Of a stretch of DNA of 55,440 nt, positions 70-25,954 are shown one piece after another. The DNA lies in IMG/VR virus record IMGVR_UViG_3300013104_000029, positions 1 through 55,440 of that record; one strand, 5' to 3'. Both the position numbers and the translations under genes were made by a program. This DNA is from a virus. Below the pieces are notes generated by a model. That model did no database searches. It was not told the DNA's origin and saw only the letters and a list, made by a program, of their open reading frames with translations. Numbering within the stretch: the stretch's first letter is position 1; every line of letters begins with the position of its first letter.

Positions 70-93
70 GGTCTGCAAAACCTAATGCAGACC
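70..93. repeat. 8-bp inverted repeat between att core and integrase stop
   Basis: GGTCTGCA (70-77) and TGCAGACC (86-93) are perfect inverted repeats 8 bases apart. No U-run follows on either strand, so it is not a clear terminator. Its place beside attL suggests a binding site for integrase, excisionase or a bending protein. CCTAAATC at 92-99 recurs at 55329-55336 beside attR. Confidence 0.5.
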
Positions 94-1301
94 TAAATCG
101 ATCCGCGCTTCTGTGAACCCTCCGGTTTTTGGGACCGGTTCACGGCCGCAATGTTGACCCCGCGGTCGGCGTTCGGTATCCACTTCGCGTAGTCCTTCAT
201 CATCACGACCAGCGAGTGCCCGTGCTGGTTCGCCACCCACACCGGGTTGGCGCCCGCCATCAGCGCCAGGGTCACGCTGGTGTCGCGACACTCCTTCGGC
301 GGCCGGTAGCGTACGCCGCACAGCTTCAGCACGCGGGTCCACGCGAGCCGCTGGGTCTGCTCGTCGCGGTACACCTTGCCGGTGTGCGGGTTCCAGAACA
401 CCTCCACGTTCTTCATCTGCGTGCGGGCGCGCTGGCGCTGGATCACGCCAGCGGCGCGGTCGTTGAGCTCGACCAGGCGCGCGACGTGCGTCTTCGTCCG
501 GTCCTTGTTTCTGGCCATGACGCGCACGCGCCGCACCATCACCGTGTTGTGCACCAGATCGACGTCGCTCCATTGCAGGGCCACCTGCTCGCTCGGCCGC
601 AAGCCGCTGAAGAACGAGAACTCGAAGTAGTCGGCCAGCTCGTCGCCTTCCTTCTTGCGCATCGTCGTGAGGATCCGCTCCACCTCGTCGGGCTCGAACG
701 GGTCGGGCGCGGCCTTCTGGGTCTTCAGGTTGTCGATTCCTTCGGTGGGGTTTGCCAGCGTGCTGGGCTGCCTGCAGATGAGCTCGAACACCGCGCGCAG
801 CGGGATCATGATGTTGTTCTGAGTCTTGCGGCTGAGACCGGCCTTCATGTTGCCCTTGGCGTCCTCGTGCTCGGCCGCCAGTTCGCCCAGGTGCTCGAGG
901 ATCATCTCGTGCGAGATTCGCTCCGGGTGCATTTCGCCGAACACCGGGCGCCAGTAGGCCTTCATGTGCCGCTTGTAGACCTCAAGCGATGAGTGCTCGA
1001 GTTCGCGCGCGGCAAGCCGTTCCCAGACGTCGGCCCAGTCGTTGAACGTGCGCTCCTGCACCTCGCTGGTTGGCTGGTGCTGGCCGCGGTTCTTGTAGTC
1101 GGGGAAGTGCTTGGCGAACGAGAAAGTGCCGTGGCTGATTTCGTGCAGGATCGACTCGCGCAACTTCGCCGCGTGCTTCAGGTTTGCGGCGTTGGGCCGC
1201 AGGTTGAGCGTCGGCGCCACCTGCTTGCCCTGCCACATGAAGCGGACCTCTATGCGCTCGCCCTTTGGCCGAACGCCTCCGCTGGTTGCTTTTCGACCCA
1301 T
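93..1301 (-). CDS. int: Tyrosine-recombinase integrase
   Basis: This 402-residue integrase catalyses recombination between attP and the tRNA attB site, and excision together with Xis. Residues 1-70 look like the short arm-DNA-binding domain of phage integrases, 80-180 the core-binding SAM-like domain, and 200-380 the catalytic domain. Visible catalytic residues are R235 (GLRPSE), R339 (ECRDTS), H362 (GHS) and the nucleophile Y371 (DYAKW). The first histidine of the usual HxxR box is not conserved. The gene ends 62 bp from the att core and its start overlaps the excisionase gene by 52 bp, the usual last place in a left early operon. Confidence 0.95.
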   Translation of the reverse strand: MGRKATSGGVRPKGERIEVRFMWQGKQVAPTLNLRPNAANLKHAAKLRESILHEISHGTFSFAKHFPDYKNRGQHQPTSEVQERTFNDWADVWERLAARELEHSSLEVYKRHMKAYWRPVFGEMHPERISHEMILEHLGELAAEHEDAKGNMKAGLSRKTQNNIMIPLRAVFELICRQPSTLANPTEGIDNLKTQKAAPDPFEPDEVERILTTMRKKEGDELADYFEFSFFSGLRPSEQVALQWSDVDLVHNTVMVRRVRVMARNKDRTKTHVARLVELNDRAAGVIQRQRARTQMKNVEVFWNPHTGKVYRDEQTQRLAWTRVLKLCGVRYRPPKECRDTSVTLALMAGANPVWVANQHGHSLVVMMKDYAKWIPNADRGVNIAAVNRSQKPEGSQKRGSI

Positions 1302-12619: not shown

Positions 12620-12631
12620 GGTGGTGGTCCC

Positions 12632-13648
12632 TCAGGCGTTGAGTTCGGCGCGGCGCTTGTCGTAGAGCGCGTTGAGTTCGGTGCGGTGGGCGGGATCGGC
12701 CACGGCCTTGATGAGATCGGCCGCCACTGCCAGCGCGTCGTCGTCGGCAGCCTTGGTCAGCTGGTCGGCGACGTGGGCATAGGTCGGGCCCGGCGCCCCG
12801 CCGCCGGCCGGCGCGCGGATGGCGGTGATCTGCTCTTCGCTCAGCGGGTACTTCGTGCGCGCCTTGGCGATGACCTGGTCGGCCTTCGCGCGACCCTCGG
12901 CGATCGCTGCACGCCACTCGGGAAGGCGTTGCGCGAACAGGTCGGCGGGCCAGCACGCCGGCGCGGCGGGCGGCGGCGGCGCGCTGCCCCGCTGGGGGTC
13001 TTGGCCGTCGTCTTCTGCGGCGCCCCGACCGTCGTCATCGTTCTCGTCCTTGGTGGCCAGGCCGGTCGCCGCGAGCAGCGTGTAGCGCTGCAGGTAGGTG
13101 ATGGTCGACGCGACCTGCTGGATGCCGTTCTTCTTGCCGCTGTTGTCCGGCGCGCCGTCGAGCGAAACCGATTCGCTGTGGCCGAGGCGGTGGGTGATGG
13201 TGCAGGTGACCACGATGCGGCCGCCGCCCTGCTGCAGATCCCAGCGGTGGGAGAGCCCGTGGCGGGCCATCGCCGGCACCACCACATCGGTGATGTGCGA
13301 CAGCTCGGCATGCTTGTAGCCGACGAAGCCGCCCTTGTCGGTGGTGTAGCCCACCTGCTTGCGCTTGAAAATCTCGAGCGGCTCGGCCTTGAAGTCGGCC
13401 ATGGCCTTCACGAAGGCCTTGCGTGCCTCGTTCGACTCCCAGCGCTCCTGCAGCTTCATCGCGCTCTCGACCAGATCGAGCGACGCGCCGCGGCTGAGCG
13501 CCGTGAGCATCATCCCGAACGGCGAGGACTCGGGCATGCTGGAGGCCAGCGCGCCGCCCTGCTGTGTTGCGGGCACTGGCGCCGAAGCGGGCCGGCTGAT
13601 GGTTTCGAGTTCGAGCACTTCGGGCTCGGCAGTGGCGGTTGCGTTCAC
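12632..13648 (-). CDS. erf: Erf-family single-strand annealing protein
   Basis: 338 residues. The ERF signature is clear: KAFVKAMADFKAEPLEIFK, GGFVGYKHAELSHI, and GIQQVASTITYLQRYTLLAA followed by TGLATKDENDDDG. It anneals complementary single strands during phage recombination and pairs functionally with the YqaJ exonuclease 12 bp downstream. After residue ~230 there is a Gly/Pro linker and a C-terminal helical region that may contact SSB or the exonuclease. Confidence 0.92.
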   Translation of the reverse strand: MNATATAEPEVLELETISRPASAPVPATQQGGALASSMPESSPFGMMLTALSRGASLDLVESAMKLQERWESNEARKAFVKAMADFKAEPLEIFKRKQVGYTTDKGGFVGYKHAELSHITDVVVPAMARHGLSHRWDLQQGGGRIVVTCTITHRLGHSESVSLDGAPDNSGKKNGIQQVASTITYLQRYTLLAATGLATKDENDDDGRGAAEDDGQDPQRGSAPPPPAAPACWPADLFAQRLPEWRAAIAEGRAKADQVIAKARTKYPLSEEQITAIRAPAGGGAPGPTYAHVADQLTKAADDDALAVAADLIKAVADPAHRTELNALYDKRRAELNA

Positions 13649-13841: not shown

Positions 13842-14089
13842 AGCGGGCTCCAGTTGTTGAAGATGAGAGCCACCGCGATGCCGATCACGCCGACGACATA
13901 GAGCGCCTTGTCGGCCGCGCGGTGCGACGGCTGTGGATCGGCCATGGGCACGATGACGCCGCCGGCGTTGGTGTCGCCGAAGGCCTGGGCCAGCGTGCGC
14001 GGGCACGGCGTGTGGCGCTCGTGCGTCGCATCGACGGTGCCGGCGAACTCGCGCGGGGCGGTCAGCGGGGTGTGGATCAAGCTGTGCAT
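13838..14089 (-). CDS. Small membrane protein, unknown function
   Basis: 83 residues with a C-terminal hydrophobic segment (ALYVVGVIGIAVALIFNNW). It partners the membrane protein that follows, with a 4-base overlap, and overlaps the zinc-finger gene upstream by 13 bp. Confidence 0.6.
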   Translation of the reverse strand: MHSLIHTPLTAPREFAGTVDATHERHTPCPRTLAQAFGDTNAGGVIVPMADPQPSHRAADKALYVVGVIGIAVALIFNNWSPL

Positions 14090-14568
14090 GCGGTCCTCGC
14101 TTTCACGGCCGCGACGACAGCGGCGCACTGCGCCACGTCGAACCAGCCGATGTGGCATTGCTCGACATCGGCGATGCCCAGCGCGCTGGCCAGCCAGGCA
14201 TAGGCCTCGCTGCGCGTCATCGAACCGCCCTGCCAGAGCGGGTTGAAGGCGTCCTTGGCCTCGCTGCGCGCGCGCCGCATCTCGGGCGTGGCCAGCGTGC
14301 CGAGCGGAATGCCGGTGAAGGGGTGCAGGCCGACGTACGAATCACAGCCGGTGCACATCAGCGCCCAGGGCCAGTCGCCGTACTCACGGCCGTAGATGCA
14401 GCTGTTCTTGTCGATGAAGACAGGCGCGCCGCAGTTCGGGCACCTCTCCGGTATCGGCAGCGGGTTGCGCACACGGGCTACGGCGCGGCGCGAGGGCGCC
14501 CAGGGCGTGACAGGGCCAGTGCGCGGCGGCAGGGCAGCGCGGAGTTGATCGCGCATGGAGCGGCTCAT
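14077..14568 (-). CDS. DUF3268-like zinc-finger protein
   Basis: 163 residues. CPNCGAPV (43-50) and MCTGCDSYVGLH (71-82) form a two-knuckle zinc finger; the region after it (FTGIPLGTLATPEMRRARSE) and the C-terminal AYAWLASALGI ... CHIGWFD are typical of the phage/prophage family I know as DUF3268. Probably nucleic-acid binding; no role is established. Confidence 0.75.
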   Translation of the reverse strand: MSRSMRDQLRAALPPRTGPVTPWAPSRRAVARVRNPLPIPERCPNCGAPVFIDKNSCIYGREYGDWPWALMCTGCDSYVGLHPFTGIPLGTLATPEMRRARSEAKDAFNPLWQGGSMTRSEAYAWLASALGIADVEQCHIGWFDVAQCAAVVAAVKARTACTA

Positions 14569-14858
14569 GCTGCGCTCCCGGTGGCCTTGGTGCGGTAGCC
14601 GTCGAGCTTCGCGTTGCACGCGGCAATCTCGGCTGCGGTCGGTGCGTTGTTCATCGCCGGCACGAGCGCGGCCGCTGCCTCGTGGCAGCCCTGCACGCGC
14701 AGAAAGTGCATCAGCACGCTCTCCAGGCCGCCGAGGAATCCACCCACGGCCGCGTCGTGGCCACCGCCCGCGCGCGCGGCGATGGTGTGCCCGCTGACGT
14801 TGGCGCTGCGGATGCTGGCGACCAGCAGCGCCGCGTCGCGCTTGCTCAAGCCGCTCAC
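14565..14858 (-). CDS. Small protein of unknown function
   Basis: 97 residues, helical and alanine-rich. It overlaps both neighbouring genes by 4 bases, which supports it as real. The glycine stretch AARAGGGHDAAVGGFLGG in the middle is odd but gives no clear motif. Confidence 0.55.
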   Translation of the reverse strand: MSGLSKRDAALLVASIRSANVSGHTIAARAGGGHDAAVGGFLGGLESVLMHFLRVQGCHEAAAALVPAMNNAPTAAEIAACNAKLDGYRTKATGSAA

Positions 14859-15112
14859 AGGACACCTCGGTTCTGCTGCGACAGCGAGAAGAGGTCGGAG
14901 GGCGCGAAGTACTCCGGCGTGGCCTTCGCAGCATTCAGCGCGCGGTCGGCGGCCAGCGCCTGCTGCTCGGTGTGCGCCACGACGTGCTCGAACTCGGCAT
15001 CGCCCATGTCGGTGCAGTCTTGGTCGGCAGCCAGGACCTCGGCCGGGTGCACCCAGTTGAAGGCTGCGCCGCGCCGCACGAAGCGGAAGCCCTGTTGTGC
15101 CAGCGTGCTCAT
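14855..15112 (-). CDS. Small protein of unknown function
   Basis: 85 residues (MSTLAQQGFRFVRRG...). Mixed alpha/beta with an acidic middle (AADQDCTDMGDAEFE). It overlaps both neighbours by 4 bases in the left early operon. No family recognised. Confidence 0.55.
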   Translation of the reverse strand: MSTLAQQGFRFVRRGAAFNWVHPAEVLAADQDCTDMGDAEFEHVVAHTEQQALAADRALNAAKATPEYFAPSDLFSLSQQNRGVL

Positions 15113-15405
15113 GCCAGCATCCCCAGCGTGTATTCGATTTGCTTTATGGCTTCGTCCACCGAGCCGGTGAACTGGTCGCCGTAGTCCGCTGCTTCAGCTG
15201 CGCGTTGCACCTGCTGCAGCTTCGCCACCGCTTCCAGCAGGTGCTTCCTCGCGGCCACCTCGGCCATCGAGCGCAGCGGGTACTGGTCAAGCGGCGTCAG
15301 GGGGATGCAGCCATTCCGGCGGCAGTGGCTGACTGTCTCGCAGCTGTCGCACAGGCCATGAGCCTTTCCTGCCGGACTGGCTTGAGCCTGAAGTTGTCCT
15401 TGCAT
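15109..15405 (-). CDS. First gene of the left early operon, unknown function
   Basis: 98 residues. A cysteine cluster (LCDSCETVSHCRRNGC) near residues 20-35 could bind a metal; the rest is helical. The second in-frame ATG (15405) is preferred because GAGGAG (plus-strand 15413-15418) sits at normal spacing from it and touches the first ATG at 15411. It is the first gene after the left promoter, about 40 bases from the predicted transcript start, the place where lambdoid phages carry N. It is not recognisably N-like. Confidence 0.65.
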   Translation of the reverse strand: MQGQLQAQASPAGKAHGLCDSCETVSHCRRNGCIPLTPLDQYPLRSMAEVAARKHLLEAVAKLQQVQRAAEAADYGDQFTGSVDEAIKQIEYTLGMLA

Positions 15406-15450
15406 GTCCATCTCCTCGGTCGCCGCTGCGGAAGTGCAGGGCGTGAGGAA

Positions 15451-15479
15451 TTATTAGTCTGACTGTTCGATCATGTCAA
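15451..15479 (-). promoter_or_regulatory. Left early promoter (PL)
   Basis: On the minus strand, TTGACA (plus-strand 15474-15479) is separated by exactly 17 bp from TAATAA (15451-15456): a near-consensus sigma-70 promoter. Transcription should start near 15444 and run leftwards to int. Two operators overlap its two boxes. Confidence 0.88.
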
Positions 15480-15492
15480 CAGTCGGACTAAT
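15453..15492. promoter_or_regulatory. Left operators (two 15-bp sites)
   Basis: Sites at 15453-15467 (minus orientation) and 15478-15492 (plus orientation) both read AACAGTCnGACTAAT and differ only at the centre base. One covers the -10 and the other the -35 of PL. The same sequence recurs beside the Cro gene, so CI and Cro are the likely ligands. Confidence 0.85.
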
Positions 15493-15544
15493 TATTTTTG
15501 GCGTAGGCTATCTGGCGCCTCCTGGCGCAGCCGGGTAGAGGAGG

Positions 15545-16171
15545 TCAGCGGCTGACGGAGGCGACGCGGCAGGCGCTGTTCAGGTAGTCGGTGGCCACCG
15601 CCCACGGCGCCACGTTCGGGTCGCTCTGCGCTTTCTTGACGAAGCCGACGGTGACCCAGCCAGAAGACCGTGCCGTGCGACGGTCGAGCGACGCATCGGA
15701 GGTCCAGCCGACCTGGTTCGCCGCGCTGGCCTCCACTGGCGTGCAGCCGAACTTCTGCAGGTAGGCGCGGGTGTGCGAGGCCGACAGCGTGGCCGAATCG
15801 AAGCCGTAGCGCTCGAAGGCGCTGGCCGCTGCTGCTTGATCGTGGCAGACCACGGCAGCCGGGCCCTTGAACATCGGGCAAATTGCCGTCACGGGGCGCG
15901 CCGCTCCGGCGCAGGGCATCCAGGTTTGCTGGTAGGCCGGCGCGCTGTCGGGGCCGAGGCACCAGCCGGCTTTCTTGATCTGGTTGAACTTCCGGTCGCG
16001 CTGCGTGCACGCTTTCTGTGTGGCCGGGCTGTCTCCGCTTCCGCCGCGGCATGCCTCATCGAGCGGATCAAGTTGCTCGATCAGTCGCGCGACATTGGCG
16101 GGTGGCTGGGCGGCGTGCGCCGCACCAGCGATGGCGAGGGCCAGAGGGATCAGGTACGGCAGGCGGCGCAT
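15545..16171 (-). CDS. Secreted cysteine-containing protein in the CI operon (candidate lysogenic-conversion gene)
   Basis: 208 residues with a clear Sec signal peptide: MRRL, a hydrophobic core (LIPLALAIAGA) and an AHA-A cleavage site near residue 21. The mature part has an N-terminal region with LDEACRGGSGDSPATQKAC and GWCLG, a pattern I recognise from short bacterial and phage periplasmic proteins. At least four cysteines could pair. Its start lies one base after the CI stop (TGAcATG), so it should be translated with CI and made in the lysogen. No promoter of its own is visible. Function unknown; superinfection exclusion or envelope modification is inference. Confidence 0.75.
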   Translation of the reverse strand: MRRLPYLIPLALAIAGAAHAAQPPANVARLIEQLDPLDEACRGGSGDSPATQKACTQRDRKFNQIKKAGWCLGPDSAPAYQQTWMPCAGAARPVTAICPMFKGPAAVVCHDQAAAASAFERYGFDSATLSASHTRAYLQKFGCTPVEASAANQVGWTSDASLDRRTARSSGWVTVGFVKKAQSDPNVAPWAVATDYLNSACRVASVSR

Positions 16172-16172
16172 G

Positions 16173-16952
16173 TCAGAAGTCCTCGCTTTTCCATGCCTTC
16201 ACCACGCGGGCGAAGATTTCGAAGTCCATTCCCTTGACGATGTCGAACGGCTCGTAGTCCTGATTCGCCGACTTCGCCCGGATGATTGTGCCGTTGAGGG
16301 TGGGGATGCGCTGCAGGCGCTTGACGAACCCTTCTTCGCCGACGCGGAAGAAGTAGATGCCGTCGATATCCGCCTTGTTGATCCCGGTGTCGACCAGCAG
16401 CGGGTCGCCCGGGTTGAAGACGCCTTTCATCGAGTCGCCGAAGCCGGTGACGATCGCCAAGTTTTCCGGGCTCGTGATCCGGTGCACGTTCTTCTGCAGC
16501 CATTCCTGGCTGACGGTCCAGCTGCGGATGACGCCAGGCTGCTCTTTCAGGATCACGCCATGTCCCATCGCGCCCCCCGTGTCGTATTGACTGATCCGAA
16601 CCGCATCTTCGACCACCTCCGAGACGGTGCGCGTGGAGCGGGCAGCGTCCTCTTCGTGCGCCGCCAGGGCGCTGTTGCTGAGCTTGCGAATCTCCTCGGC
16701 GATGGACGGGCTGAAAGCTCCAACGTCCACGCCCAGGAGCGCGGCGAACTTGGACGCCGCATCGGCGTTGAGTGGAATCTTCCCGTTGAGGTACTGGTTG
16801 AGGGCGCTCTGGCCGAAGCCCAACTGCTCCGAGCACCAGTCCTGTGAGCACGGCAGCTTTTCCTTTCGACGATCAGCCTGCCACGCGACGAATAGGTCTT
16901 TGAGGCGGTTGGCATCACCGAGCTGGCGGACGGTCAGAGGTTGGGCGGGCAT
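16173..16952 (-). CDS. CI-type repressor with S24 (LexA-like) autocleavage domain
   Basis: 259 residues. The N-terminal ~80 residues form a helix-turn-helix of the CI type (DWCSEQLGFGQSALNQYLNG). The C-terminal ~115 residues are an S24 peptidase: catalytic S174 in GDSM and K211 in FVKRLQ. AMG near residue 128-130 is a possible cleavage site in the linker. It should keep the prophage silent and be inactivated by RecA-stimulated self-cleavage. It faces away from the Cro gene across the shared operator region. No ribosome site precedes the ATG, and a -10-like TAATAG ends 10 bases upstream, so its message may be leaderless. Confidence 0.92.
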   Translation of the reverse strand: MPAQPLTVRQLGDANRLKDLFVAWQADRRKEKLPCSQDWCSEQLGFGQSALNQYLNGKIPLNADAASKFAALLGVDVGAFSPSIAEEIRKLSNSALAAHEEDAARSTRTVSEVVEDAVRISQYDTGGAMGHGVILKEQPGVIRSWTVSQEWLQKNVHRITSPENLAIVTGFGDSMKGVFNPGDPLLVDTGINKADIDGIYFFRVGEEGFVKRLQRIPTLNGTIIRAKSANQDYEPFDIVKGMDFEIFARVVKAWKSEDF

Positions 16953-16963
16953 CGCTTGAGCCT

Positions 16964-17035
16964 ATTAGTGGGGCTCATCACGAGCAAACAGTCGGGCTGA
17001 TAAAAAGTTTGACTAAAACGATCAGTCGGACTAAT
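16964..17035. promoter_or_regulatory. Right operator region between CI and Cro genes
   Basis: Sites resembling AACAGTCnGACTAAT are at 17021-17035 (AtCAGTCGGACTAAT), 16987-17001 (AACAGTCGGgCTgAT), 17003-17017 (AAaAGTttGACTAAa, weaker) and 16964-16978 (minus strand, weak). Centre spacings are about 16-23 bp, as expected for cooperative repressor binding. The best site lies between the -35 and -10 of PR, the weakest over the CI promoter. Confidence 0.8.
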
Positions 17036-17038
17036 AAT
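17009..17038 (+). promoter_or_regulatory. Right early promoter (PR)
   Basis: TTGACT (17009-17014), a 17-bp spacer, then TAATAA (17032-17037). The predicted start of transcription falls at about 17044-17046, on the ATG of the Cro-like gene, implying a leaderless message. Confidence 0.85.
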
Positions 17039-17044
17039 TCCGAC

Positions 17045-17287
17045 ATGAACCCAATCAAAGCAATTCGCGAGCGCCTGGGCATGACTCAGCTGGAGCTGGC
17101 CGCCGAACTCGATTGCTCGCAGAGCAACGTGTCCTTCATCGAGAAGGGGCAGTCGGTCCTTCAACCGATGGCGAAGGCGCTGATCGCGGTGGCCGCCAAG
17201 CGTGGCCTGGCCATCACCTACGACCACGTCTACGGCGATCAGGAGCTGCCCCCAGTCCCCGCTGAAGAAGAAGCGAAGGCGGCTTGA
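17045..17287 (+). CDS. Cro-like helix-turn-helix regulator
   Basis: 80 residues starting MNPIKAIRERLGMTQ. An XRE-type helix-turn-helix is plain: MTQLELAAELDCSQSNVSFI. It is the first gene rightward of PR and opposite to CI, the Cro position. A TTG-initiated extension from 17009 would lie in promoter sequence, so ATG 17045 is used. No Shine-Dalgarno is present. Confidence 0.85.
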   Translation: MNPIKAIRERLGMTQLELAAELDCSQSNVSFIEKGQSVLQPMAKALIAVAAKRGLAITYDHVYGDQELPPVPAEEEAKAA

Positions 17288-17290
17288 GCC

Positions 17291-17500
17291 ATGCGCCTCG
17301 CCCGCCTGTTCACTCGCCTGCTGGCCTACGCCATGGCCGCCGTCGCATGCGGGCTCGCGCTCGCCGCGTTCTGCAACTGCCGGCCAGGTGCCGCGGCCCT
17401 CGCGCTCGGCGCCGGCGGCTTCTTCTTCCTGATCCTGCTGCGCGACTGCGCGCTCAACGAGCAGCCGCTGCAGGACTTCGAGGCCCAGTTCATGGATTGA
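17291..17500 (+). CDS. Small membrane protein after Cro
   Basis: 69 residues with two hydrophobic segments (LLAYAMAAVACGLALAAF and AALALGAGGFFFLILL) and an acidic C-terminus. It begins 3 bases after the Cro stop. Function unknown. It precedes the long hairpin at 17520-17602. Confidence 0.6.
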   Translation: MRLARLFTRLLAYAMAAVACGLALAAFCNCRPGAAALALGAGGFFFLILLRDCALNEQPLQDFEAQFMD

Positions 17501-17519
17501 AGACCACCCATGCGCGTCT

Positions 17520-17602
17520 TTTCTGATGTGCCCACCAGTGCCTCCGTGTTCCCGCGGGGGGCCTCCCAAAGGGGCGCGTGCACTGGCTGGGTACATCAGA
17601 AA
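17520..17602 (+). other. Long imperfect inverted repeat (RNA hairpin) in the right early leader
   Basis: Arm 17520-17541 (TTTCTGATGT...CCAGTGC) pairs with 17580-17602 (GCACTGG...ACATCAGAAA): about 21 base pairs with one G-U and one bulge, around a 38-base GC-rich loop that can fold again. No U-run follows directly (T7 appears only at 17634-17640). It is untranslated and lies between the Cro pair and the next early gene. It could be an antitermination signal, an sRNA or a regulated terminator. Confidence 0.6.
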
Positions 17603-17649
17603 GGTCGTGATCTTGAGCGTCGTCATGGCCCTTATTTTTTTGCCCGACC

Positions 17650-17672
17650 CAACCGGTTAGGCAACTGGTTAG
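17650..17672 (+). promoter_or_regulatory. Direct repeat CAACYGGTTAG, possible regulator site
   Basis: CAACCGGTTAG (17650-17660) and CAACTGGTTAG (17662-17672) form a 12-bp-period direct repeat 33 bp upstream of the next gene. Direct repeats spaced about one helical turn are what CII-type activators bind, but no -35/-10 pair is clear here. Confidence 0.4.
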
Positions 17673-17704
17673 ACGCTGAAATTTTCCTATCGAGAGGCCC
17701 CTTG

Positions 17705-18055
17705 ATGGACCAAATGGAGTTCCGGCTCTTGGAGCGTGTACACGCACCAAGCGTCGTCCCTGAGCAATGGGTGAAATACGCAAAAACCTACCGCGCTGCG
17801 GTGCGTGTCGCTTGGACGTTGCGGCGCATGAAGGCCGCGAAGCCCGCCGACATGGCGCGCGACATGGGCTTCTACGCCCAGCACATCAGCGACTGGCTGG
17901 CCGAGGACGACAGAAAGACACGTCGCAGCCTGCCGGCCACGGAGATCCCGGACTTCGAGTCCTGGGTCGGCAACACCCTGGTTTCGCAGTGGCTGGCGTT
18001 CCACGCCAAGCTGACCGTGCTCGAGCAGATCACGGCTTCGCAGCTGCAGGCCTGA
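17705..18055 (+). CDS. Helix-turn-helix protein at the CII position
   Basis: 116 residues. The middle (KAAKPADMARDMGFYAQHISDWLAED) looks like a helix-turn-helix with an extended recognition helix; the C-terminal ~35 residues are helical (VSQWLAFHAKLTVLEQI). Gene order (CI, Cro, this, replication genes) is that of lambda cII, and the gene is preceded by the direct repeat at 17650-17672. I cannot assign it to the CII family from sequence alone. The frame is open upstream to 17510, but that covers the hairpin and does not look coding. Confidence 0.6.
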   Translation: MDQMEFRLLERVHAPSVVPEQWVKYAKTYRAAVRVAWTLRRMKAAKPADMARDMGFYAQHISDWLAEDDRKTRRSLPATEIPDFESWVGNTLVSQWLAFHAKLTVLEQITASQLQA

Positions 18056-18074
18056 CGACGAGGAGCGCACGAGC

Positions 18075-18320
18075 ATGACGAGCATCTACTGGCCCGGCAC
18101 GCGCATCGTGCGCTCGACCCACAACGGTTTCACGCTCGGCCTCACCGGCGAGCCCGTGAACTGGAAGCCGCTGCAGCGTTCCGCGAACGCCCGCCGCAGG
18201 AGCACCGCGAACGTCGATCAGGCCCGCGCCACCGGCAAGGACCTGTCGACGATGCACGGCATCTCGAAGAAGGCGGACACGCGCATCGCCGCGCAGCGCG
18301 CGCGGAAGGCAGGGCGGTGA
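18075..18320 (+). CDS. Small basic early protein, unknown function
   Basis: 81 residues: a beta-rich start (IYWPGTRIVRSTHNGFTLGL) and a basic helical tail. GAGGAG lies 10-15 bases upstream. Its TGA overlaps the ATG of the helicase-methyltransferase gene by one base, so the two are probably coupled. Confidence 0.65.
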   Translation: MTSIYWPGTRIVRSTHNGFTLGLTGEPVNWKPLQRSANARRRSTANVDQARATGKDLSTMHGISKKADTRIAAQRARKAGR

Positions 18321-20845
18321 TGGACTATGCCGACTTCCTCCGCGCCAAGATCCGCATGGCCCAGTTCAAGGGCTTCGACGTTCCGCTCGAGCAGATCAAC
18401 CCCGCCCTGAAGCCGCACACCCGCGACATCGTACGCTGGGCAGTGCAGGGCGGTCAGCGCGCCATCTTCGCCAGTTTCGGCCTGCACAAGACTGCGACCC
18501 AGCTGGAAATCTTCCGGCAGATCGGCATGGCTCGGCCCGAGCTGTTCCGCCTGCAAATCGCCCCGCTTGGCGTGCGGCAGGAGTTCCGCGACGAGATCAC
18601 CGCGCGCTTCCAGGGCGCGCACGCCATCGACATGCGCTTCGTGCGCCGCGACAGCGAGATCGACGACCCGGCCACTCTGTACCTGACCAACTACGAGGCC
18701 GTGCGCGAGGGCAACATCACGGTGGGCCACTTCGGCGCCACCAGCCTCGACGAAGCCAGCGTGCTGCGCAGCTACGGCAGCAAGACCTACCAGGAGTTCC
18801 TGCCGGCCTTCGCACCGGTCGAGTTCAAGTTCGTGGCCACCGCCACGCCGAGCCCGAACCGATTCAAGGAGCTGATCCACTACGCCGGCTACCTCGGCGT
18901 CATGGACACCGGCCAGGCCCTCACGCGCTTCTTCCAGCGCGACAGCGAGAAGGCCGGCAACCTGACCCTCTACCCGCACAAGGAAGAGGAGTTCTGGCTC
19001 TGGGTGGCCAGCTGGGCGGTTTTCATCCAGCGCCCCAGCGACCTGGGCCACTCCGACGAGGGCTACGTGCTGCCCGCGCTCGACGTCCGTTACCACGAGG
19101 TGCCGAGCGACTACGCCGCGGCGGGCACCGAGAAGAACGGCCAGGGCCTGCTGATCCCCGACGTGGCGATGGGCCTGTCGGCGGCGGCCAGCGAGAAGCG
19201 CGGCAGCATGCCGGCGCGCGTGGCCAAGGTGCAGGAGCTGGTCAGCGCGGATCCTGCTGACCACTTCATCGTCTGGCACGACCTCGAAGACGAGCGCCAC
19301 GCCATCCAGCAGGCGATTCCCGAGGCGGTCAGCGTCTGGGGCTCTCAAGACCTGGAAGAGCGCGAGTCGCGCATCGTGGCCTTCGGCAACGGCGAGCACC
19401 GCGTGCTGTCCACCAAGCCGGTGATCGCCGGCAGCGGCTGCAACTTCCAGCGCCACTGCCACCGCGAGATCTTCGCGGGCATCGGCTTCAAGTTCAACGA
19501 CTTCATCCAGAGCATCCACCGGGTCCAGCGCTTCGGCCAGGCCCACGCGGTGCGCATCGACATCGTGCACACCGAAGCCGAGCGGGAGGTGCTGCGCAGC
19601 CTGCTGGCCAAGTGGGCACAGCACGAAGAAATGGGCCAGAAGATGACCGACATCATTCGCAAGTACGGACTGAGCCAACTCGCGATGCAGGATGCTCTCG
19701 CGCGTTCCATCGGCGTGAAGCGCATCGAGGTCCGCAGCGACCTGTTCACGGTGGCGCAAAACGACTGCGTCGAAGAGGCTCGGTTGCAGCCGGAGAACTC
19801 CGTCGACCAGATCATCACGAGCGTCCCGTTCGCGAACCACTACGAATACACGCCGAGCTACAACGACTTCGGCCACACGCAGGACAACGCGCACTTCTGG
19901 GCGCAGATGGATTTCCTGACACCCGAGCTGCTGCGGATCCTGAAGCCTGGCCGCATCTACTGCTGCCACGTGAAGGACCGGATCAACTTCGGCAACGTCA
20001 CCGGCGCCGGCATTCCCACCGTCAGCCCATTCCATGCCGAGGCGCTTTTCCATGGCCTGAAGCACGGCTTCGACTACATGGGGATGATCACGGTGGTGAC
20101 CGACGTGGTGCGGGAGAACAACCAAACGTACCGCCTCGGCTACACCGAGATGTGCAAGGACGGCACGAAGATGGGCGTGGGCTCGCCCGAGTACATCCTG
20201 CTGTTCCACAAGCCGCAGACGGACCGCTCCCGCGGCTACGCCGACGTGCCCGTGGTGAAGTCCAAGGCCGAGTACAGCCTCGCGCGCTGGCAGGTCGATG
20301 CGCATGCGCTGTGGCGCTCCAGCGGCGACCGCCTGCTGACGGCCGAAGAGATGGCCAGCTATGGGCCCGCAAAGCTGGCCAAGATCTTCACGCAGCACAG
20401 TCTGGCCAACGTCTACGACTTCGACTTCCACGTTCGAATCGGTGAGGAGCTGCTGGCGCGGCAGGCGCTCCCGAGCACATTCATGAGCCTTGCGCCCGGC
20501 AGCCACCATGCGGATGTCTGGCACGACGTGGTGCGCATGCTGACGCTCAATGGCGAGCAGTCAAGCCGCGCGGTCGAGAAGCATGTCTGCCCGCTGCAGT
20601 TCGACATCGTCGACCGCCTGATCGAGCGCTACAGCAACAAGGGCGACGTGATCTACGACCCGTTCTGTGGGCTCGGCACCGTCCCCGTGCGCGCTATCAA
20701 GGCCGGCCGCCGCGGCGCTGGCTCGGAGCTGAACCCGGCGTACTTCCTCGACCAGGTGCACTACCTGCGCGCCGCTGAGCGTGACGCCAGCATGCCCAGT
20801 CTGTTCGACTTCGAGGTGCCCGAGACCGAAGCGGAGGCCGCATGA
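18320..20845 (+). CDS. SNF2-like helicase fused to a beta-class N4/N6 DNA methyltransferase
   Basis: 841 residues with two modules. Residues ~20-450 are an SF2/SNF2-type ATPase: an altered Walker A (GLHKT, 54-58, where GLGKT is usual), motif II LDEAS (143-147), TATP (174-177) and motif VI QSIHRVQRFGQ (397-407). Residues ~465-825 are a beta-class amino-methyltransferase: motif IV TSVPF (500-504; usual form S/N/D-PP-Y/F), then motif I DPFCGLGT (780-787) towards the C-terminus. It probably methylates adenine or N4-cytosine while moving on DNA. P1 DarB is a known larger methyltransferase-helicase with an antirestriction role. A GTG one codon upstream (18317) is an alternative start. Confidence 0.88.
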   Translation: MDYADFLRAKIRMAQFKGFDVPLEQINPALKPHTRDIVRWAVQGGQRAIFASFGLHKTATQLEIFRQIGMARPELFRLQIAPLGVRQEFRDEITARFQGAHAIDMRFVRRDSEIDDPATLYLTNYEAVREGNITVGHFGATSLDEASVLRSYGSKTYQEFLPAFAPVEFKFVATATPSPNRFKELIHYAGYLGVMDTGQALTRFFQRDSEKAGNLTLYPHKEEEFWLWVASWAVFIQRPSDLGHSDEGYVLPALDVRYHEVPSDYAAAGTEKNGQGLLIPDVAMGLSAAASEKRGSMPARVAKVQELVSADPADHFIVWHDLEDERHAIQQAIPEAVSVWGSQDLEERESRIVAFGNGEHRVLSTKPVIAGSGCNFQRHCHREIFAGIGFKFNDFIQSIHRVQRFGQAHAVRIDIVHTEAEREVLRSLLAKWAQHEEMGQKMTDIIRKYGLSQLAMQDALARSIGVKRIEVRSDLFTVAQNDCVEEARLQPENSVDQIITSVPFANHYEYTPSYNDFGHTQDNAHFWAQMDFLTPELLRILKPGRIYCCHVKDRINFGNVTGAGIPTVSPFHAEALFHGLKHGFDYMGMITVVTDVVRENNQTYRLGYTEMCKDGTKMGVGSPEYILLFHKPQTDRSRGYADVPVVKSKAEYSLARWQVDAHALWRSSGDRLLTAEEMASYGPAKLAKIFTQHSLANVYDFDFHVRIGEELLARQALPSTFMSLAPGSHHADVWHDVVRMLTLNGEQSSRAVEKHVCPLQFDIVDRLIERYSNKGDVIYDPFCGLGTVPVRAIKAGRRGAGSELNPAYFLDQVHYLRAAERDASMPSLFDFEVPETEAEAA

Positions 20846-21093
20846 CGCCCCTCCAGATCAAGATCGCTCGCCGGCGCGAGCACCAGATCCTGGCCGAGGG
20901 GCTGGCCATCGAGATCGCAATGGACCTGGGCGAGCGCGACGAGGCTGACCGGCACCGCCGCGAGATGGAAGCGCTGATCGCCGCGCGCGAGGCGGCGCTG
21001 CAGCTCGAGGAAGAGGAGGGCGCCAGCTACTTCGAGGCTGCGGGTCAGGTCGCGGCCATCCAGGCTGACGCGCGGAGGGCGGTGAGCGCGTGA
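20842..21093 (+). CDS. Small helical charged protein
   Basis: 83 residues, almost entirely charged helix (IKIARRREHQILAEGLAIEI ... AALQLEEEEGASYFE). It overlaps the methyltransferase stop by 4 bases and the next gene's GTG start by 4 bases. Function unknown. Confidence 0.6.
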   Translation: MTPLQIKIARRREHQILAEGLAIEIAMDLGERDEADRHRREMEALIAAREAALQLEEEEGASYFEAAGQVAAIQADARRAVSA

Positions 21094-21974
21094 CTGATTC
21101 TGCCGAAAAGACAAAGCGGCCGGCGTCCCAGTACTACTGGGGCGACTGGTGGAAGGACAAGGGGTTGCACTCGTGTTCGCTGACGGCGCGCGGCCTGTGG
21201 CATGAGATGAACTGCCTGATGCATGAGGGCGAGCCCTACGGGCACCTGACGCTGAACGGCCGCCCGATGTCGATCGCGCAGCTGGCCAACCAGTGCCGCA
21301 TCACGCCGAACGTCTGCAAGAAGCTGCTGGACGAGCTGATGGCGGCCGGCGTGCCCTCTGTGGGCGATGCGGGCGTAATCTTCAGCCGTCGCATGGTGCG
21401 CGACGAGGCCGTCAGGAATGCCCGTGCCGCTGGCGGGAAGGCTGGCGCCGAACACGGGTTCAAGGGCGCCGAGGCGGGTAAGAAGGGGGGTAGGCCGAAG
21501 CAGTCGAAGGGGGTTGAAAAAACCCCCCTTCATGGTGCCGAAGAACCCCCCCCTTCTTCTTCATCTTCTTCTTCACCTTCAGATCTATTTCCGGAAGCTA
21601 ACGCTTCCTCGTCGGCGGCCGAGCCGCCGGCATGCCCCCATGCCCGACTGCTCGACCTCTTTGCCGAACTCGTGCCCGAGCTGCCACAGCCGCGGCGCGA
21701 GATGTGGGCCGACGGCAAGGGCGCGGAGGCCATGCGCCAGCGCTGGAAGTGGCTGCTGACGGCCAAGCGCAGCACGAACGGCCACCGGTACGCCAGCACC
21801 ACGGAGGAGGGCGTGGAGTGGTTCCGCCGCTTCTTCGAGGCCGTGGGCGCATCGGACTTCCTGACCGGCCGCAACGGCGCATGGCGCGGCTGTGACCTCA
21901 CCTGGCTGATGGGCAAAGAGAACTTCACCAAGGTGGTGCAGGGCAACTACACGAACAAGGATCAAGCGTCATGA
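21090..21974 (+). CDS. Replication initiator/helicase-loader-like protein (lambda O/P position)
   Basis: 294 residues from a GTG that overlaps the previous stop. The N-terminal ~110 residues look like a winged-helix: KGLHSCSLTARGLWHEMNCL, then SIAQLANQCRITPNVCKKLL. A low-complexity Ser/Pro/Ala linker follows (~150-185). The C-terminal region (LFAELVPELPQPREMWA-like, then RRFFEAV ... DLTWLMGKENFTKVVQG) resembles the C-terminal part of phage replication proteins that end with WL...NFxKVxxGxY. It lies directly upstream of the DnaB gene, so an origin may lie inside or beside it; I saw no clear iterons. Confidence 0.7.
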   Translation: MTDSAEKTKRPASQYYWGDWWKDKGLHSCSLTARGLWHEMNCLMHEGEPYGHLTLNGRPMSIAQLANQCRITPNVCKKLLDELMAAGVPSVGDAGVIFSRRMVRDEAVRNARAAGGKAGAEHGFKGAEAGKKGGRPKQSKGVEKTPLHGAEEPPPSSSSSSSPSDLFPEANASSSAAEPPACPHARLLDLFAELVPELPQPRREMWADGKGAEAMRQRWKWLLTAKRSTNGHRYASTTEEGVEWFRRFFEAVGASDFLTGRNGAWRGCDLTWLMGKENFTKVVQGNYTNKDQAS

Positions 21975-23353
21975 ACGACCGAGTCGATGAATCCCTCTTG
22001 GCACCGGCGGTGCTGTGGAGCCCTGATGCCGAAACTTCGCTGCTCGGCGCGCTGCTGCTGGAAAACAGCCTGTGGGATCGCGTGGGCGACATGGTCTCCG
22101 AGACCGACTTCTTCAAAAACGAGCACAAGCTGATCTTCGGCGCGTTGAGCGGCATGCTCAATGCCTGCAAGCCGGCCGACGTGCTCACGGTCTTCGACCA
22201 GCTGCAGCGCAGCCGCAAGGCCGACATGGTGGGGCTGACGGACCTGCACGCACTCACCCAGTACGTTCCGAGCGCATCCAGCGTGCGGCAGTACGCGCTG
22301 ATCGTGCGCGACTTTGCGCTACGCCGGAAGCTGATGCTGGCCAGCACCCAGATTCACGAGCTGGCCTGCCAGCGCGGCGTGGGCTTCGAGGAGACGCTTG
22401 ATCAGGCGACCGCGCTGCTGACGCCGCTGTTCGACGCGGACAAGAGCGAGGCCTGGCTGGACATGGACGATGGAATGGTCCAGTTCCTCGACGGCATCCA
22501 GCGCCGCCACGACGGAGAGGAAGACTTCCTGTCGACCGGGATCAAGTCGCTCGACGACCGGCTCGACGGTGGCATGCGGCGCGGCGAGGTCATCGTCATC
22601 GCCGGCCGCCCGGGCATGGGCAAGACGGCGCTGGCCATGTCCATCGCGGATCACATCTGCGGCATGAGCGAACCCGTGGGCGTGCTGTCGATGGAGATGC
22701 CGAAGGCGCAACTGACCACGCGAGTCGTGTCGATGCGCTCGAACGTGCCATTGCACAAGCTCAAGCGGCCCGAGCGCATGAACGACTACGACTGGAGCGA
22801 GATGACGCGCGCGGTCGACCAGCTGCGCTGCCTGCCGCTGTTCATCGACGACCAGACGGCGCTCAACATCAACCAGCTGCGCTCGAAGGCGCGCGCGCTG
22901 AAGCGCCGCCGCGGCCTGCGCCTGCTGGTGGTGGACTACATCGGGCTGATGGAGGGCACGGACCGCAAGGCCAACCGCGCCACGCAGCTCGGCGAGGTCA
23001 GCCGCGGCATCAAGGCGCTGGCCAAGGAGCTGGACTGCACCATCCTGCTGCTGGCCCAGCTGAACCGCGAGGTCGAGAAGCGTCCGAACATGCGTCCCAT
23101 CATGGCCGACCTGCGCGAGTGCGGCGACATCGAGCAGGACGCCGACATCATCGCGTTCGTTCACCGCCCGGCGCATGTGAAGCCCGACCTGGGCCCGGAG
23201 TGGAAGCACTACGCCGAAATCATCATCGGCAAGCAGCGAGACGGCCAGACCGGGCTCGTCGATTCGCAGTACACAGGCGACACCGTGAGGTTCTGCGATT
23301 GGGTGGGGGACCGGCCCACCTCGATGGTGCGCACGAAGGGAGCCGACCTGTGA
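21971..23353 (+). CDS. dnaB: DnaB-type replicative helicase
   Basis: 460 residues. The N-terminal DnaB domain (~15-115) contains SPDAETSLLGALLLEN and DFFKNEHKLIF. The RecA-like ATPase has Walker A GRPGMGKTA (~212-220), Walker B LLVVDYIGLM and the QLNREVEKRPNMRPIMADLR segment typical of DnaB. It would load at the phage origin with the upstream initiator. The start overlaps the previous stop by 4 bases. Confidence 0.95.
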   Translation: MNDRVDESLLAPAVLWSPDAETSLLGALLLENSLWDRVGDMVSETDFFKNEHKLIFGALSGMLNACKPADVLTVFDQLQRSRKADMVGLTDLHALTQYVPSASSVRQYALIVRDFALRRKLMLASTQIHELACQRGVGFEETLDQATALLTPLFDADKSEAWLDMDDGMVQFLDGIQRRHDGEEDFLSTGIKSLDDRLDGGMRRGEVIVIAGRPGMGKTALAMSIADHICGMSEPVGVLSMEMPKAQLTTRVVSMRSNVPLHKLKRPERMNDYDWSEMTRAVDQLRCLPLFIDDQTALNINQLRSKARALKRRRGLRLLVVDYIGLMEGTDRKANRATQLGEVSRGIKALAKELDCTILLLAQLNREVEKRPNMRPIMADLRECGDIEQDADIIAFVHRPAHVKPDLGPEWKHYAEIIIGKQRDGQTGLVDSQYTGDTVRFCDWVGDRPTSMVRTKGADL

Positions 23354-23859
23354 TCAACATCGGCATCGATCCTGGCATCGCCGGCGCCGTGGCGTTCGTT
23401 GACAGCGCGACGGGCCGCGCGCAGGTGTTTGACCTGCCCATCCATCGGACCGACCGGCGCATTGACGGCCTGGCCCTGGCGCTGCTGATGCGCGAGCATG
23501 CACCGGCAGCAGTCGGCGGCCGCGTGTTCCTCGAGAAGCTCCACGCGCGCGCCAGCGGGGGCGGCATGCAGCAGATGGGTTCCATGATGAAGACCGTCGG
23601 CATCATCATCGGCGCCATCGACTGCACGAAGTTCCCGCTGGTCGAAGTCGTTCCCCAGACTTGGAAGCGCACGTTCGGCCTGATCGACGCGCCCAGCGCC
23701 TTCAGCGCGAAGAAGACGGACGCGGAGCGCAAGGCCGGCTCACTGGCTGTCGCGCGGCGGCTCTATCCGGCGTTGGAAGCGGAACTCCGGCGCGCCAAGG
23801 ACGACGGCCGCGCCGAGGCGCTGCTGATCGCCCACTGGGGAAAGGTCACCCAGTCATGA
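23350..23859 (+). CDS. RuvC-like Holliday-junction resolvase
   Basis: 169 residues from GTG (GTGA overlap with the helicase stop). RNase-H fold acidic residues are visible: D7 (IGIDPGIAGA), E62 (VFLEKLHA) and D151/D152 with E156 (DDGRAEALLIA). This is the phage RuvC-like family that resolves junctions in replicating or packaging DNA. Confidence 0.85.
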   Translation: MINIGIDPGIAGAVAFVDSATGRAQVFDLPIHRTDRRIDGLALALLMREHAPAAVGGRVFLEKLHARASGGGMQQMGSMMKTVGIIIGAIDCTKFPLVEVVPQTWKRTFGLIDAPSAFSAKKTDAERKAGSLAVARRLYPALEAELRRAKDDGRAEALLIAHWGKVTQS

Positions 23860-24413
23860 AGTGGACCGAAGGCATCATCGCCAGCATCATTGCCCGCCAG
23901 ACGCTGGCGAAGAAGTGCATCCTGCTGGTCGACCGCTGCAACTGGACGGGCGCCGAGTGCGACGTGCTGGGCGTCACGATGGACCTGCGCGTCATCGACG
24001 TGGAGGTGAAGATCAGCCGCGCCGACCTGAAGGCTGACGCGAAGAAGGACAAGTGGTGGAAGCGCGTCACGTGGCGCGATGAGCCCGGGCCGCCACAGCT
24101 GCGCCCGCACCCGCCGAAGGTCTGGAAACACTACTACGCTTTGCCGGCCGAGATCTGGAAGCCCGAGCTGTTGGCTTTCCTACCGTCGCCCGCCAGCGGC
24201 GTGCTGCTGGTGCGTGAGCGCGGCAGCATGCTGGAGGCCTACTGCGAGCGCCGCGCGACGCCGAACAAGGACGCCGCCCGCCTGTCGCCGGCGTCGGTCA
24301 TCGACATCGCTCGGCTGGCGAACCTGCGCATGTGGGACGCCTACGGCAGCGCCGAGAAGGCGCAGCGCGAGATCCGTGAACTGCGCCAGCGCGTGGAAGG
24401 GGAAACGGCATGA
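23856..24413 (+). CDS. PD-(D/E)XK nuclease-like protein
   Basis: 185 residues. D36 in ECDVLGV, then E50-x-K52 in DVEVKISRADL, is the D...ExK core of a restriction-endonuclease-like fold (MmcB-like proteins share this pattern). The C-terminal part is helical. A nuclease function is inferred from these residues only. It starts with a 4-base overlap. Confidence 0.6.
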   Translation: MKWTEGIIASIIARQTLAKKCILLVDRCNWTGAECDVLGVTMDLRVIDVEVKISRADLKADAKKDKWWKRVTWRDEPGPPQLRPHPPKVWKHYYALPAEIWKPELLAFLPSPASGVLLVRERGSMLEAYCERRATPNKDAARLSPASVIDIARLANLRMWDAYGSAEKAQREIRELRQRVEGETA

Positions 24414-25044: not shown

Positions 25045-25376
25045 TTTTCCCACCCATCGAGACGGACAACGTTCACGCGTTGCCTGTGAAGCCGCGCCCA
25101 GCACCGGACGATGGCGCAATGCTGCAGCCCGTGCCGCACACACAGTGCCAGCACCACCTCGCGGTCTTCACCATCGACCTTGACGCCGGCAAATGCTTTT
25201 GCAAGCGCTGCGCCGGGGAGGTGTCGCCCATGTTCGTGCTCGAGCAGCTCATGCGGCAGGAGAGCCGCTGGATGCAGACGATGGCGACATACCAGGACCA
25301 GATGAAGCGCCTGGCCGAGCGCTCGCGCACGAAGTGTCAGCACTGCGGCGAGATGACGCGGGTGAGCCACAGATGA
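25041..25376 (+). CDS. Zinc-finger-like protein
   Basis: 111 residues. CQHH, CFCKRC and CQHCGEM in the middle and C-terminus could hold one or two zinc ions; a helical segment (MFVLEQLMRQESRWMQTMAT) separates them. Nucleic-acid binding is likely but not shown. Confidence 0.6.
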   Translation: MIFPPIETDNVHALPVKPRPAPDDGAMLQPVPHTQCQHHLAVFTIDLDAGKCFCKRCAGEVSPMFVLEQLMRQESRWMQTMATYQDQMKRLAERSRTKCQHCGEMTRVSHR

Positions 25377-25954
25377 AGCGCACTCCCATGTCGCGCGGCA
25401 CCGGCTTCAAGCGCCGCGCGCCCACCACTCGAGCACCAGCAAGAAGTGAGGCTGCATGCGGGCTGCCGGCCGACCACGCGGCTATCGAGCATCAGGTGCC
25501 GACCACCCTTGTGCGCGCCGCGCGCCGCGGCACCTACGCCGCGCCGCCGGCCGCCGCCGCGATTCCCAAGACGCCGCGTGCCGCGAACCGGCACCTTCTC
25601 AACATGGCGCACGGCAAGCCTTGCCTGATTCGCAGCCCGATTTGTGTAGGTGGCACCGAGACCACTGTGGCGTGCCACGGTGGCGGCGTCGCCGCCGGCA
25701 AGGGCCTTGGCTACAAGCTGCACGACTGGCGTACCGCCTGGGGCTGCTACCGCTGCAACCACTACACCGACGCCTACGGCGGCGCCACGCGCGCGCAGAA
25801 GGGCGCCGCTTTCGACATCGGCTTCCTGCGCCAGGTGCTGGAGTGGCGCGCCATCGTCGCCGACATCACCCAGCCCGCCAAAGACCGCCTCGCGGCCCAG
25901 TGGGCACTGGACCACATCAACGCAACGCCCGTAGGGCAAGGAGACGGCGCATGA
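25373..25954 (+). CDS. DUF1364-like (YbcO-type) HNH-like protein
   Basis: 193 residues. From about residue 75, HGKPCLIRSPICVGG ... TVACHGGG ... AWGCYRCNHYTDAYGG matches the DUF1364 / YbcO family of lambdoid nin regions, thought to be HNH-like nucleases. Two CxxC-like pairs and histidines give the metal site. The N-terminal 70 residues are a basic, low-complexity extension not typical of the family. Confidence 0.75.
   Translation: MKRTPMSRGTGFKRRAPTTRAPARSEAACGLPADHAAIEHQVPTTLVRAARRGTYAAPPAAAAIPKTPRAANRHLLNMAHGKPCLIRSPICVGGTETTVACHGGGVAAGKGLGYKLHDWRTAWGCYRCNHYTDAYGGATRAQKGAAFDIGFLRQVLEWRAIVADITQPAKDRLAAQWALDHINATPVGQGDGA

Follow-up and report, generated by a model that had tools for sequence, protein, structure and literature searches.

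What does a phage gain from a protein in which a SNF2-type helicase and a DNA methyltransferase share one chain, and can such a protein work when two of its active-site motifs depart from the textbook? The question is raised by a fusion gene in IMGVR_UViG_3300013104_000029, an IMG/VR-type virus record; the whole stretch of 55,440 bases that was analysed is called the window here. Its gene layout is that of a temperate phage, and the element that hosts the fusion gene is a prophage. A sequence-only reading of the window had presented the gene as a helicase/methyltransferase with altered motifs, as a likely protector of phage DNA resembling compact antirestriction proteins, and as its best candidate for a poorly described system. 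The fusion is neither a new system nor a damaged one. Comparison with its relatives points to a real, conserved and very probably active enzyme. We put the probability at roughly 60% that it is a phage DNA-modification enzyme which adds methyl groups to phage DNA as it replicates, most likely as a protection from host restriction.

Two domains in one chain

Profile searches find both halves of the protein (coordinates are given in Table 1). The family phrog_16, annotated 'DNA helicase', matches residues 26-839 (E 2e-119), and PF01555 (N6_N4_Mtase) matches with E 1e-13 and 52.2 bits, against a cut-off of 26.7. For the single sequence no Pfam helicase model was listed at E values up to 1; a stand-alone helicase homologue, P0002, matches Pfam SNF2-rel_dom and Helicase_C. 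When a profile of 60 family members was compared with the PDB, it reached both the SNF2/Rad54 structure 1z63 (E 2.5e-14) and the methyltransferase TTHA0409 (2zie; E 5.5e-17).

An AlphaFold2 model of the full chain has a mean predicted local distance difference test (pLDDT) score of 79. Its residues 20-447 align with the Ino80 and Isw1 ATPases over 376-399 residues at Z scores of about 30 (VIA-align). A model of the methyltransferase alone, built with 80 aligned sequences, has a pLDDT of 80; DNA methyltransferases make up the first 20 of its 50 structure matches (Z 18.5-24.5), including TTHA0409 (24.5), CcrM (24.2), MboIIA (24.1), M.BceJIV (23.8) and M.PvuII (22.2). The structure comparison reports top chains, and a family missing there may still match. 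Model confidence is lower in both predictions for the stretch between motifs VIII and X.

SNF2 motifs I, II, III and VI and the two-lobe fold are thus present by alignment, profile and predicted structure. The motif order of beta-class DNA amino-methyltransferases is IV, VIII, X, I, and this is the order found in the second half. The claim of an SNF2 helicase and a DNA methyltransferase in a single chain is borne out, and the structure prediction that had been suggested for both modules returned an SNF2-like motor and a methyltransferase. The strings quoted in support of that claim are all in place: FGLHKT (residues 54-59), LDEAS (144-148), QSIHRVQRFGQ (398-408), TSVPF (501-505) and DPFCGLGT (781-788). 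Outside the two domains lie residues ~1-19, 448-469 and 831-842; these leftover segments are too short to hold a nuclease domain. Among the Pfam, PHROG, NCBIfam and PADLOC matches listed for the protein there is no nuclease model.

The unusual motifs belong to the family

The two departures are a histidine in place of the glycine before the Walker A lysine, and a motif IV without a proline at its second position. Both could mark a catalytically dead enzyme that keeps DNA binding only. Their standing was judged in an alignment of the query with 159 open reading frames (ORFs) from 160 family loci (L090 is without a clean ORF), which gave 145 distinct rows. The loci are the best 80 of 131 and the best 80 of 386 confirmed places, and the alignment is skewed to close relatives. 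Residue 57, before the lysine, is H in 87 rows (the query has H) and G in 58, and residue 59 is T in 112 and S in 33. On a 60-row tree the H/G label changes six times, at least four of them forced by well-supported branches. Motif IV reads S-[I/V]-P-F in every row; position 503 is I in 128 rows, V in 17 and P in none, and the TSVPF of the query aligns with the SPPF of a two-gene relative. The first proline of motif IV makes mainly a backbone contribution. KsgA/Erm RNA methyltransferases have N-[L/I]-P-Y as motif IV, and a hydrophobic second position is therefore compatible with activity.

Selection on the gene was estimated as the ratio of nonsynonymous to synonymous substitution rates (dN/dS) against five relatives that are 80-94% identical. 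The ratio comes to 0.08-0.23 over the full gene; taken singly, the helicase half gives 0.08-0.24 and the methyltransferase half 0.07-0.21. Two of the five relatives (L082 and L005) lie at a synonymous distance close to or beyond 1. By these ratios both halves are under purifying selection. Degenerate active sites were rejected on the family-wide motifs, the H/G swap on the tree and the low dN/dS, and with K58, S502, P504 and F505 invariant a dead enzyme is highly improbable. What had been read as an oddity of one protein is a property of its family. Before a motif is called altered for a single letter that differs from the textbook, it has to be seen in an alignment of its family.

Four family members carry insertions of 327-333 amino acids (aa). 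In L081 the insertion lies between K58 and T59 of Walker A; in L019, L029 and L161 it lies directly before C758 of motif X. From their size, first and last residues and position, we take these insertions for inteins. Passages of PMC9957025 state that inteins prefer conserved sites, and parts of PMC5050341 catalogue mycobacteriophage N6_N4 methylases with inteins.

A hyperconserved hairpin in the methyltransferase

The motif VIII hairpin has a mean pairwise identity of 0.81-0.82 in 56 fusion rows at core identities of 0.55-0.75. In 46 rows of SPPF relatives, nearly all of them two-gene forms, it is 0.45-0.64 in the same core-identity bins. This comparison leaves out L060 and L073, which have no exact TS[IV]PF string, and its pool held three SPPF fusions before thinning. 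For residues ~634-755 the fusions give identities of 0.47 and 0.53 at core identities of 0.55-0.65 and 0.65-0.75; the SPPF relatives give 0.40 and 0.61.

In the fusions the hairpin varies less than the catalytic core, which is not so in the SPPF relatives. A tentative case can therefore be made for the fusion as a processive writer, driven by the motor, whose single fixed target has been kept in phages of several bacterial phyla. If true, it would leave a shared phage epigenetic mark or carry out a near sequence-independent, translocation-driven 'painting' of DNA, and would not be a methylase that mimics one host restriction system. A fixed target recognition domain was upheld only in part, since the hairpin is hyperconserved and residues ~634-755 are not, and it is therefore not taken as the main explanation.

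The same hairpin identities across phyla, together with the position of the gene beside a replication initiator, would also suit an epigenetic regulator, in which a fixed, shared methyl mark would time replication, packaging or late transcription and would not block restriction. Such a role is rather unlikely: among the eight mycobacteriophages compared below, two have neither module and a third has other methyltransferases, so that no fixed mark is needed for growth on M. smegmatis.

A widespread family with a two-gene form

The search for the same fusion in other phages that had been proposed finds it widespread. The protein matches 312 of 50,697 phage records (304 over at least 80% of the chain) and 13 of 72,556 plasmids (six over at least 80%). 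The phage records include those of Mycobacterium (146), Flavobacterium (85), Arthrobacter (27), Pseudomonas (22) and other hosts, and the best phage and plasmid matches have 60-65% identity over 99-100% of the chain. Contigs with the fusion are labelled Pseudomonadota, Actinomycetota, Bacillota, Bacteroidota, Spirochaetota, Chlorobiota and Planctomycetota; some are metagenome bins and their labels may be wrong. Among 59 relatives that are mutually less than 80% identical, pairwise identity goes down to 48%, with a median of 58%. In a megablast search with 20 kilobases of the window, all ten phage matches listed, of 105, lie within the fusion gene.

Of the 60 rows among the matches listed, 53 are named helicase and/or methylase. 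Pacc40 gp60 (L165:5953-9978) has the RefSeq name 'anaerobic ribonucleoside reductase large subunit', which looks wrong; the same name occurs in four of the 60 rows. The description of the fusion as a poorly described system holds in part. With 312 phage records and Pacc40 gp60 in print, the family is known, yet as far as we found it is experimentally uncharacterised. The open-licence literature, covered through titles, abstract starts and selected passages, yielded no assay of the family. None of the methylome and essentiality papers listed names the gene in its title or abstract start, and the word 'helicase' is absent from the main text of a gut-phage methylome paper (PMC10477858). More than 300 phage records thus carry a protein for which no assay was found.

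The motor and the methyltransferase also occur as two genes, helicase first. Among 80 viral loci that have a relative of the methyltransferase P0003, a same-strand helicase homologue precedes the methyltransferase in 74; three loci are fused and three show no helicase. Two of these last three have little upstream sequence, and one of the 80 rows is without a readable motif IV. The 74 loci argue that motor and methyltransferase are kept together. On a 122-row methyltransferase tree the S[IV]PF fusions are parted from the SPPF relatives by one branch with a support of 99 in the Shimodaira-Hasegawa-like approximate likelihood ratio test (SH-aLRT). Three SPPF fusions fall among the two-gene forms, and so the two parts were probably fused, or split, more than once. 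This was a quick tree with open forks; two of the 60 fusion rows (L060 and L073) were left out, and its root is unsure, with the outgroup P0005 on a very long branch.

One slot with several fillings in mycobacteriophages

Eight mycobacteriophages were chosen by hand from the 362 records in which the flank was matched in part or whole, and were compared at one slot, the genes that follow a shared HNH endonuclease gene. Seven belong to Cheoctovirus, the genus of the cluster F1 phage Pacc40; the eighth, Cornie, is a Cornievirus. Drago and Llama matched the flank query over the HNH gene only. The slot holds the fusion in Pacc40, Cornie and Eish. Cabrinians and Whouxphf have two genes there, one for a helicase (446 and 429 aa) and one for a methyltransferase (316 aa). 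In Mantra it holds two methyltransferases of other kinds and no helicase, and in Drago and Llama neither module. Similarity between the larger Mantra methyltransferase and the window protein is confined to short stretches (best E 2e-4). At E <= 0.001 the whole records of Mantra, Drago and Llama have no match to the fusion protein, and those of Drago and Llama have no match to PF01555, the family which that search covered. In the six other phages, the carriers, every PF01555 match at this threshold lies within the slot.

Since Drago and Llama have no such module, it is not needed for growth on M. smegmatis; the helicase/methyltransferase module is dispensable. A DNA methyltransferase, with or without a motor, is what the slot fillings have in common, and the methyltransferase therefore looks like the selected part. 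These near-natural swaps at one slot (fusion, split pair, other methyltransferase, neither), in phages that can be grown on a laboratory strain, make the function directly testable.

Two further annotations were noted. Llama has short ORFs annotated 'DNA methylase' near the slot, without PF01555 support. A PAPS reductase-like gene (phrog_424; L004:10526-11635) begins at the end of the fusion match in its locus, and annotated PAPS reductase genes also lie near the slot in Eish and Drago.

Gene context in the window

The fusion gene stands in a chain of genes which diverges from the CI-like repressor and leads into the replication initiator and DnaB. Every gene junction in 17767-23353, both fusion junctions included, is a 4-base overlap, which implies translational coupling. 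A promoter scan of 15400-24200 gave two promoter-like sites, against a mean of 0.6 in shuffled sequence, and none in 17627-17766, the gap ahead of the first gene of the chain; the operon is thus called from gene overlaps and gene order alone. Because the operon diverges from the repressor, the fusion is expected to be expressed in lytic growth and to be low, probably silent, in the lysogen.

The three small genes that flank the fusion (17767-18320 and 20842-21093) have no Pfam or PHROG match. Across the 161 family loci, relatives of the two upstream genes were found in none and relatives of the 83-aa downstream ORF in two, itself included. Relatives of the initiator lie directly downstream of the fusion in 24 of the 161 loci (window included; two similarity steps), and a relative of the C5 methyltransferase lies near the fusion in 43 (one similarity step). 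All of these counts are lower bounds; flank lengths differ, and the window's own C5 gene is outside the scanned span. A C5 methyltransferase in the same window, with relatives in 43 of the loci, looks as if DNA modifications were being stacked.

An SNF2 fold, an initiator and DnaB that follow in the same chain, and the initiator relatives in 24 loci would all fit a replication or recombination motor, an analogue of Rad54, UvsW or RapA with the methyltransferase secondary. We consider this unlikely. The methyltransferase half is under purifying selection, and Mantra has methyltransferases in the slot but nothing related to the helicase. The records of Drago and Llama show no match to the fusion protein or PF01555 anywhere.

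Three other features were noted. The RecE-like exonuclease and the adjoining ERF-type protein (10721-13648, minus strand) form a phage recombination pair. A DUF3268 zinc-finger protein is encoded at 14077-14934 (minus strand), left of the repressor. An antisense ORF of 768 aa at 18218-20524 (minus strand) covers most of the fusion gene and is presumed to be a by-product of codon composition.

Table 1. Features of the window, with the domains and motifs of the fusion protein; row counts refer to the 145-row family alignment
Feature	Position	Strand	Remarks
Integrase	93-1301	-	
C5-cytosine methyltransferase, 829 aa	5565-8054	-	PF00145 at residues 17-202, phrog_116; long stretch beyond the PF00145 match
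RecE-like exonuclease	10721-12619	-	
ERF-type annealing protein	12632-13648	-	
CI-like repressor	16173-16952	-	phrog_4 (E 2e-39); phrog_6201, CI-like (E 7e-17); diverges from the fusion operon
Two small genes upstream of the fusion	17767-18078, 18075-18320	+	Chained to the fusion by 4-base overlaps
Helicase/methyltransferase fusion gene, 842 aa	18317-20845	+	GTG start; ATG second codon at 18320
SNF2-type two-lobe motor, residues 20-447	18374-19657	+	Structure match and family profile
Walker A GLHKT, residues 55-59	18479-18493	+	G55, K58 in 145/145 rows
Motif II DEAS, residues 145-148	18749-18760	+	D145, E146, A147 in 145/145 rows
Motif VI QSIHRVQRFGQ, residues 398-408	19508-19540	+	Q398, R402, R405, Q408 in 145/145 rows
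Beta-class DNA amino-methyltransferase domain, residues 470-830	19724-20806	+	PF01555; motif order IV, VIII, X, I
Methyltransferase motif IV TSVPF, residues 501-505	19817-19831	+	S502, P504, F505 in 145/145 rows
Motif VIII hairpin, residues 592-633	20090-20215	+	More conserved than the core motifs
Motif X HVCPLQ, residues 756-761	20582-20599	+	H756, C758, P759, Q761 in 145/145 rows
S-adenosylmethionine (SAM)-binding motif I DPFCGLGT, residues 781-788	20657-20680	+	D781, F783, G785 in 145/145 rows; P782 in 144
83-aa ORF downstream of the fusion	20842-21093	+	4-base overlaps
Replication initiator	21090-21974	+	PHROG match; 4-base overlaps
DnaB-like helicase	21971-23353	+	PHROG match; 4-base overlap
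YbcO/HNH nuclease gene	25193-25954		
Terminase, portal, major head protein	from 31647 onward		

Proposed function

In the reading that we favour, methylation of replicating phage DNA, the fusion would be made early in lytic growth. Its N-terminal SNF2-type motor would bind double-stranded DNA and move along it using ATP. The motor would carry a beta-class amino-methyltransferase, which would transfer a methyl group from SAM to an exocyclic amino group in newly replicated phage DNA. The methyl marks would most likely keep host restriction enzymes off the phage genome. A serine at the start of motif IV, rather than D or N, leans to cytosine N4. Because motif IV of the fusion begins with serine, cytosine N4 is more likely to be the target than adenine N6.

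Protection of phage DNA had already been proposed from the sequence alone, on the ground that no restriction subunit lies nearby, and it remains the likeliest role. The ten neighbours scanned with PADLOC gave no restriction model, and the chain itself has little room for a nuclease; farther along the window there is a YbcO/HNH nuclease gene, at 25193-25954.

Several points weigh against this function. No methylome, ATPase assay or restriction assay was found for any member of the fusion family. Target recognition should vary among anti-restriction methyltransferases; a hairpin that is hyperconserved across phyla does not follow that expectation and suits a fixed target or a regulatory mark equally well. 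The replication genes next to the fusion also fit a role in replication. The choice of methylated base rests on the serine rule for motif IV, and the nearest structures include both N4 and N6 enzymes. The slot comparison covers eight records only.

Methylomes of a few related mycobacteriophages could tell whether coupling to a motor alters the density or place of the marks, and whether altered marking is what defeats restriction. A comparison of lysogen with cured strain, which had been put forward as a check, may well be blind, since the fusion is probably silent in the lysogen.

Comparison with known systems

P1 DarB had been named as a larger example of the class to which the fusion might belong. 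As it is described in passages of PMC5512222, DarB is likewise a phage-borne single chain with an SNF2-like ATPase and a DNA methyltransferase; the same passages report widespread coupling of SWI2/SNF2 ATPases with adenine methyltransferases in phages, as single chains or as neighbours. In their account the helicase of DarB follows an EcoKI/TaqI-like methyltransferase, and an LPD36 domain belongs to the DarB-like layout. The window protein has the helicase first and the methyltransferase second. The best BLASTP match between the fusion and DarB has E 0.86, the helicase and methyltransferase hidden Markov models of the family give no match to DarB, and the two proteins belong to separate PHROGs. 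With no detectable sequence relation and a reversed domain order, the fusion was rejected as a small DarB, and the supposed resemblance was given up.

DISARM offers a second comparison. Part of the second motor lobe, at about residues 339-449, resembles DrmD: the model NF038317 matches residues 339-449 with E 0.0016 (16.8 bits against a cut-off of 610), and the PADLOC DrmD model matches residues 369-426 with E 5e-5. These weak matches, and the presence of DruM and DrmMII models among the PADLOC matches of the C5 methyltransferase at 5565-8054, are what might suggest a defence against other phages expressed in the lysogen, on the pattern of the helicase and methyltransferase components of DISARM or BREX. 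That is very improbable for a protein found in 312 phage records and encoded in an early operon on the lytic side, opposite the repressor. The ten neighbours scanned with PADLOC gave only the methyltransferase models of the C5 gene and a weak mads_8 match of the DnaB gene (E 2e-5); no DISARM helicase and no DrmA/B/C-type match was among them.

The methyltransferase fold and motif order of the fusion are those of TTHA0409 (2zie), CcrM, MboIIA and M.PvuII. Unlike the fusion, these enzymes stand alone; motif IV of TTHA0409 is TSPPY. Closer to the fusion is the helicase and methyltransferase pair of Cabrinians (gp67/gp68), which is homologous to it, has the same order and lies in the same slot. 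The identity to the window protein is 33% for the helicase (E 2e-68) and 25% for the methyltransferase (E 3e-34). The pair differs in having separate genes, an SPPF motif IV, a canonical GMGKT Walker A and a shorter region between motifs VIII and X.

The phage helicase/methylase family itself (phrog_16), with Pacc40 gp60 and gp80 of Arthrobacter phage RadFad, provides full-length homologues with the same domain order. The named actinophage proteins of this kind have 60-62% identity to the window protein, and a passage of PMC11855218 describes Pacc40 gp60 as a helicase domain followed by a methylase domain. Compared with the Pacc40 gp60 type, the window protein replaces the Walker A glycine by H and has V, not I, in motif IV; gp60 carries extra stretches, whereas the window protein is without an insertion.

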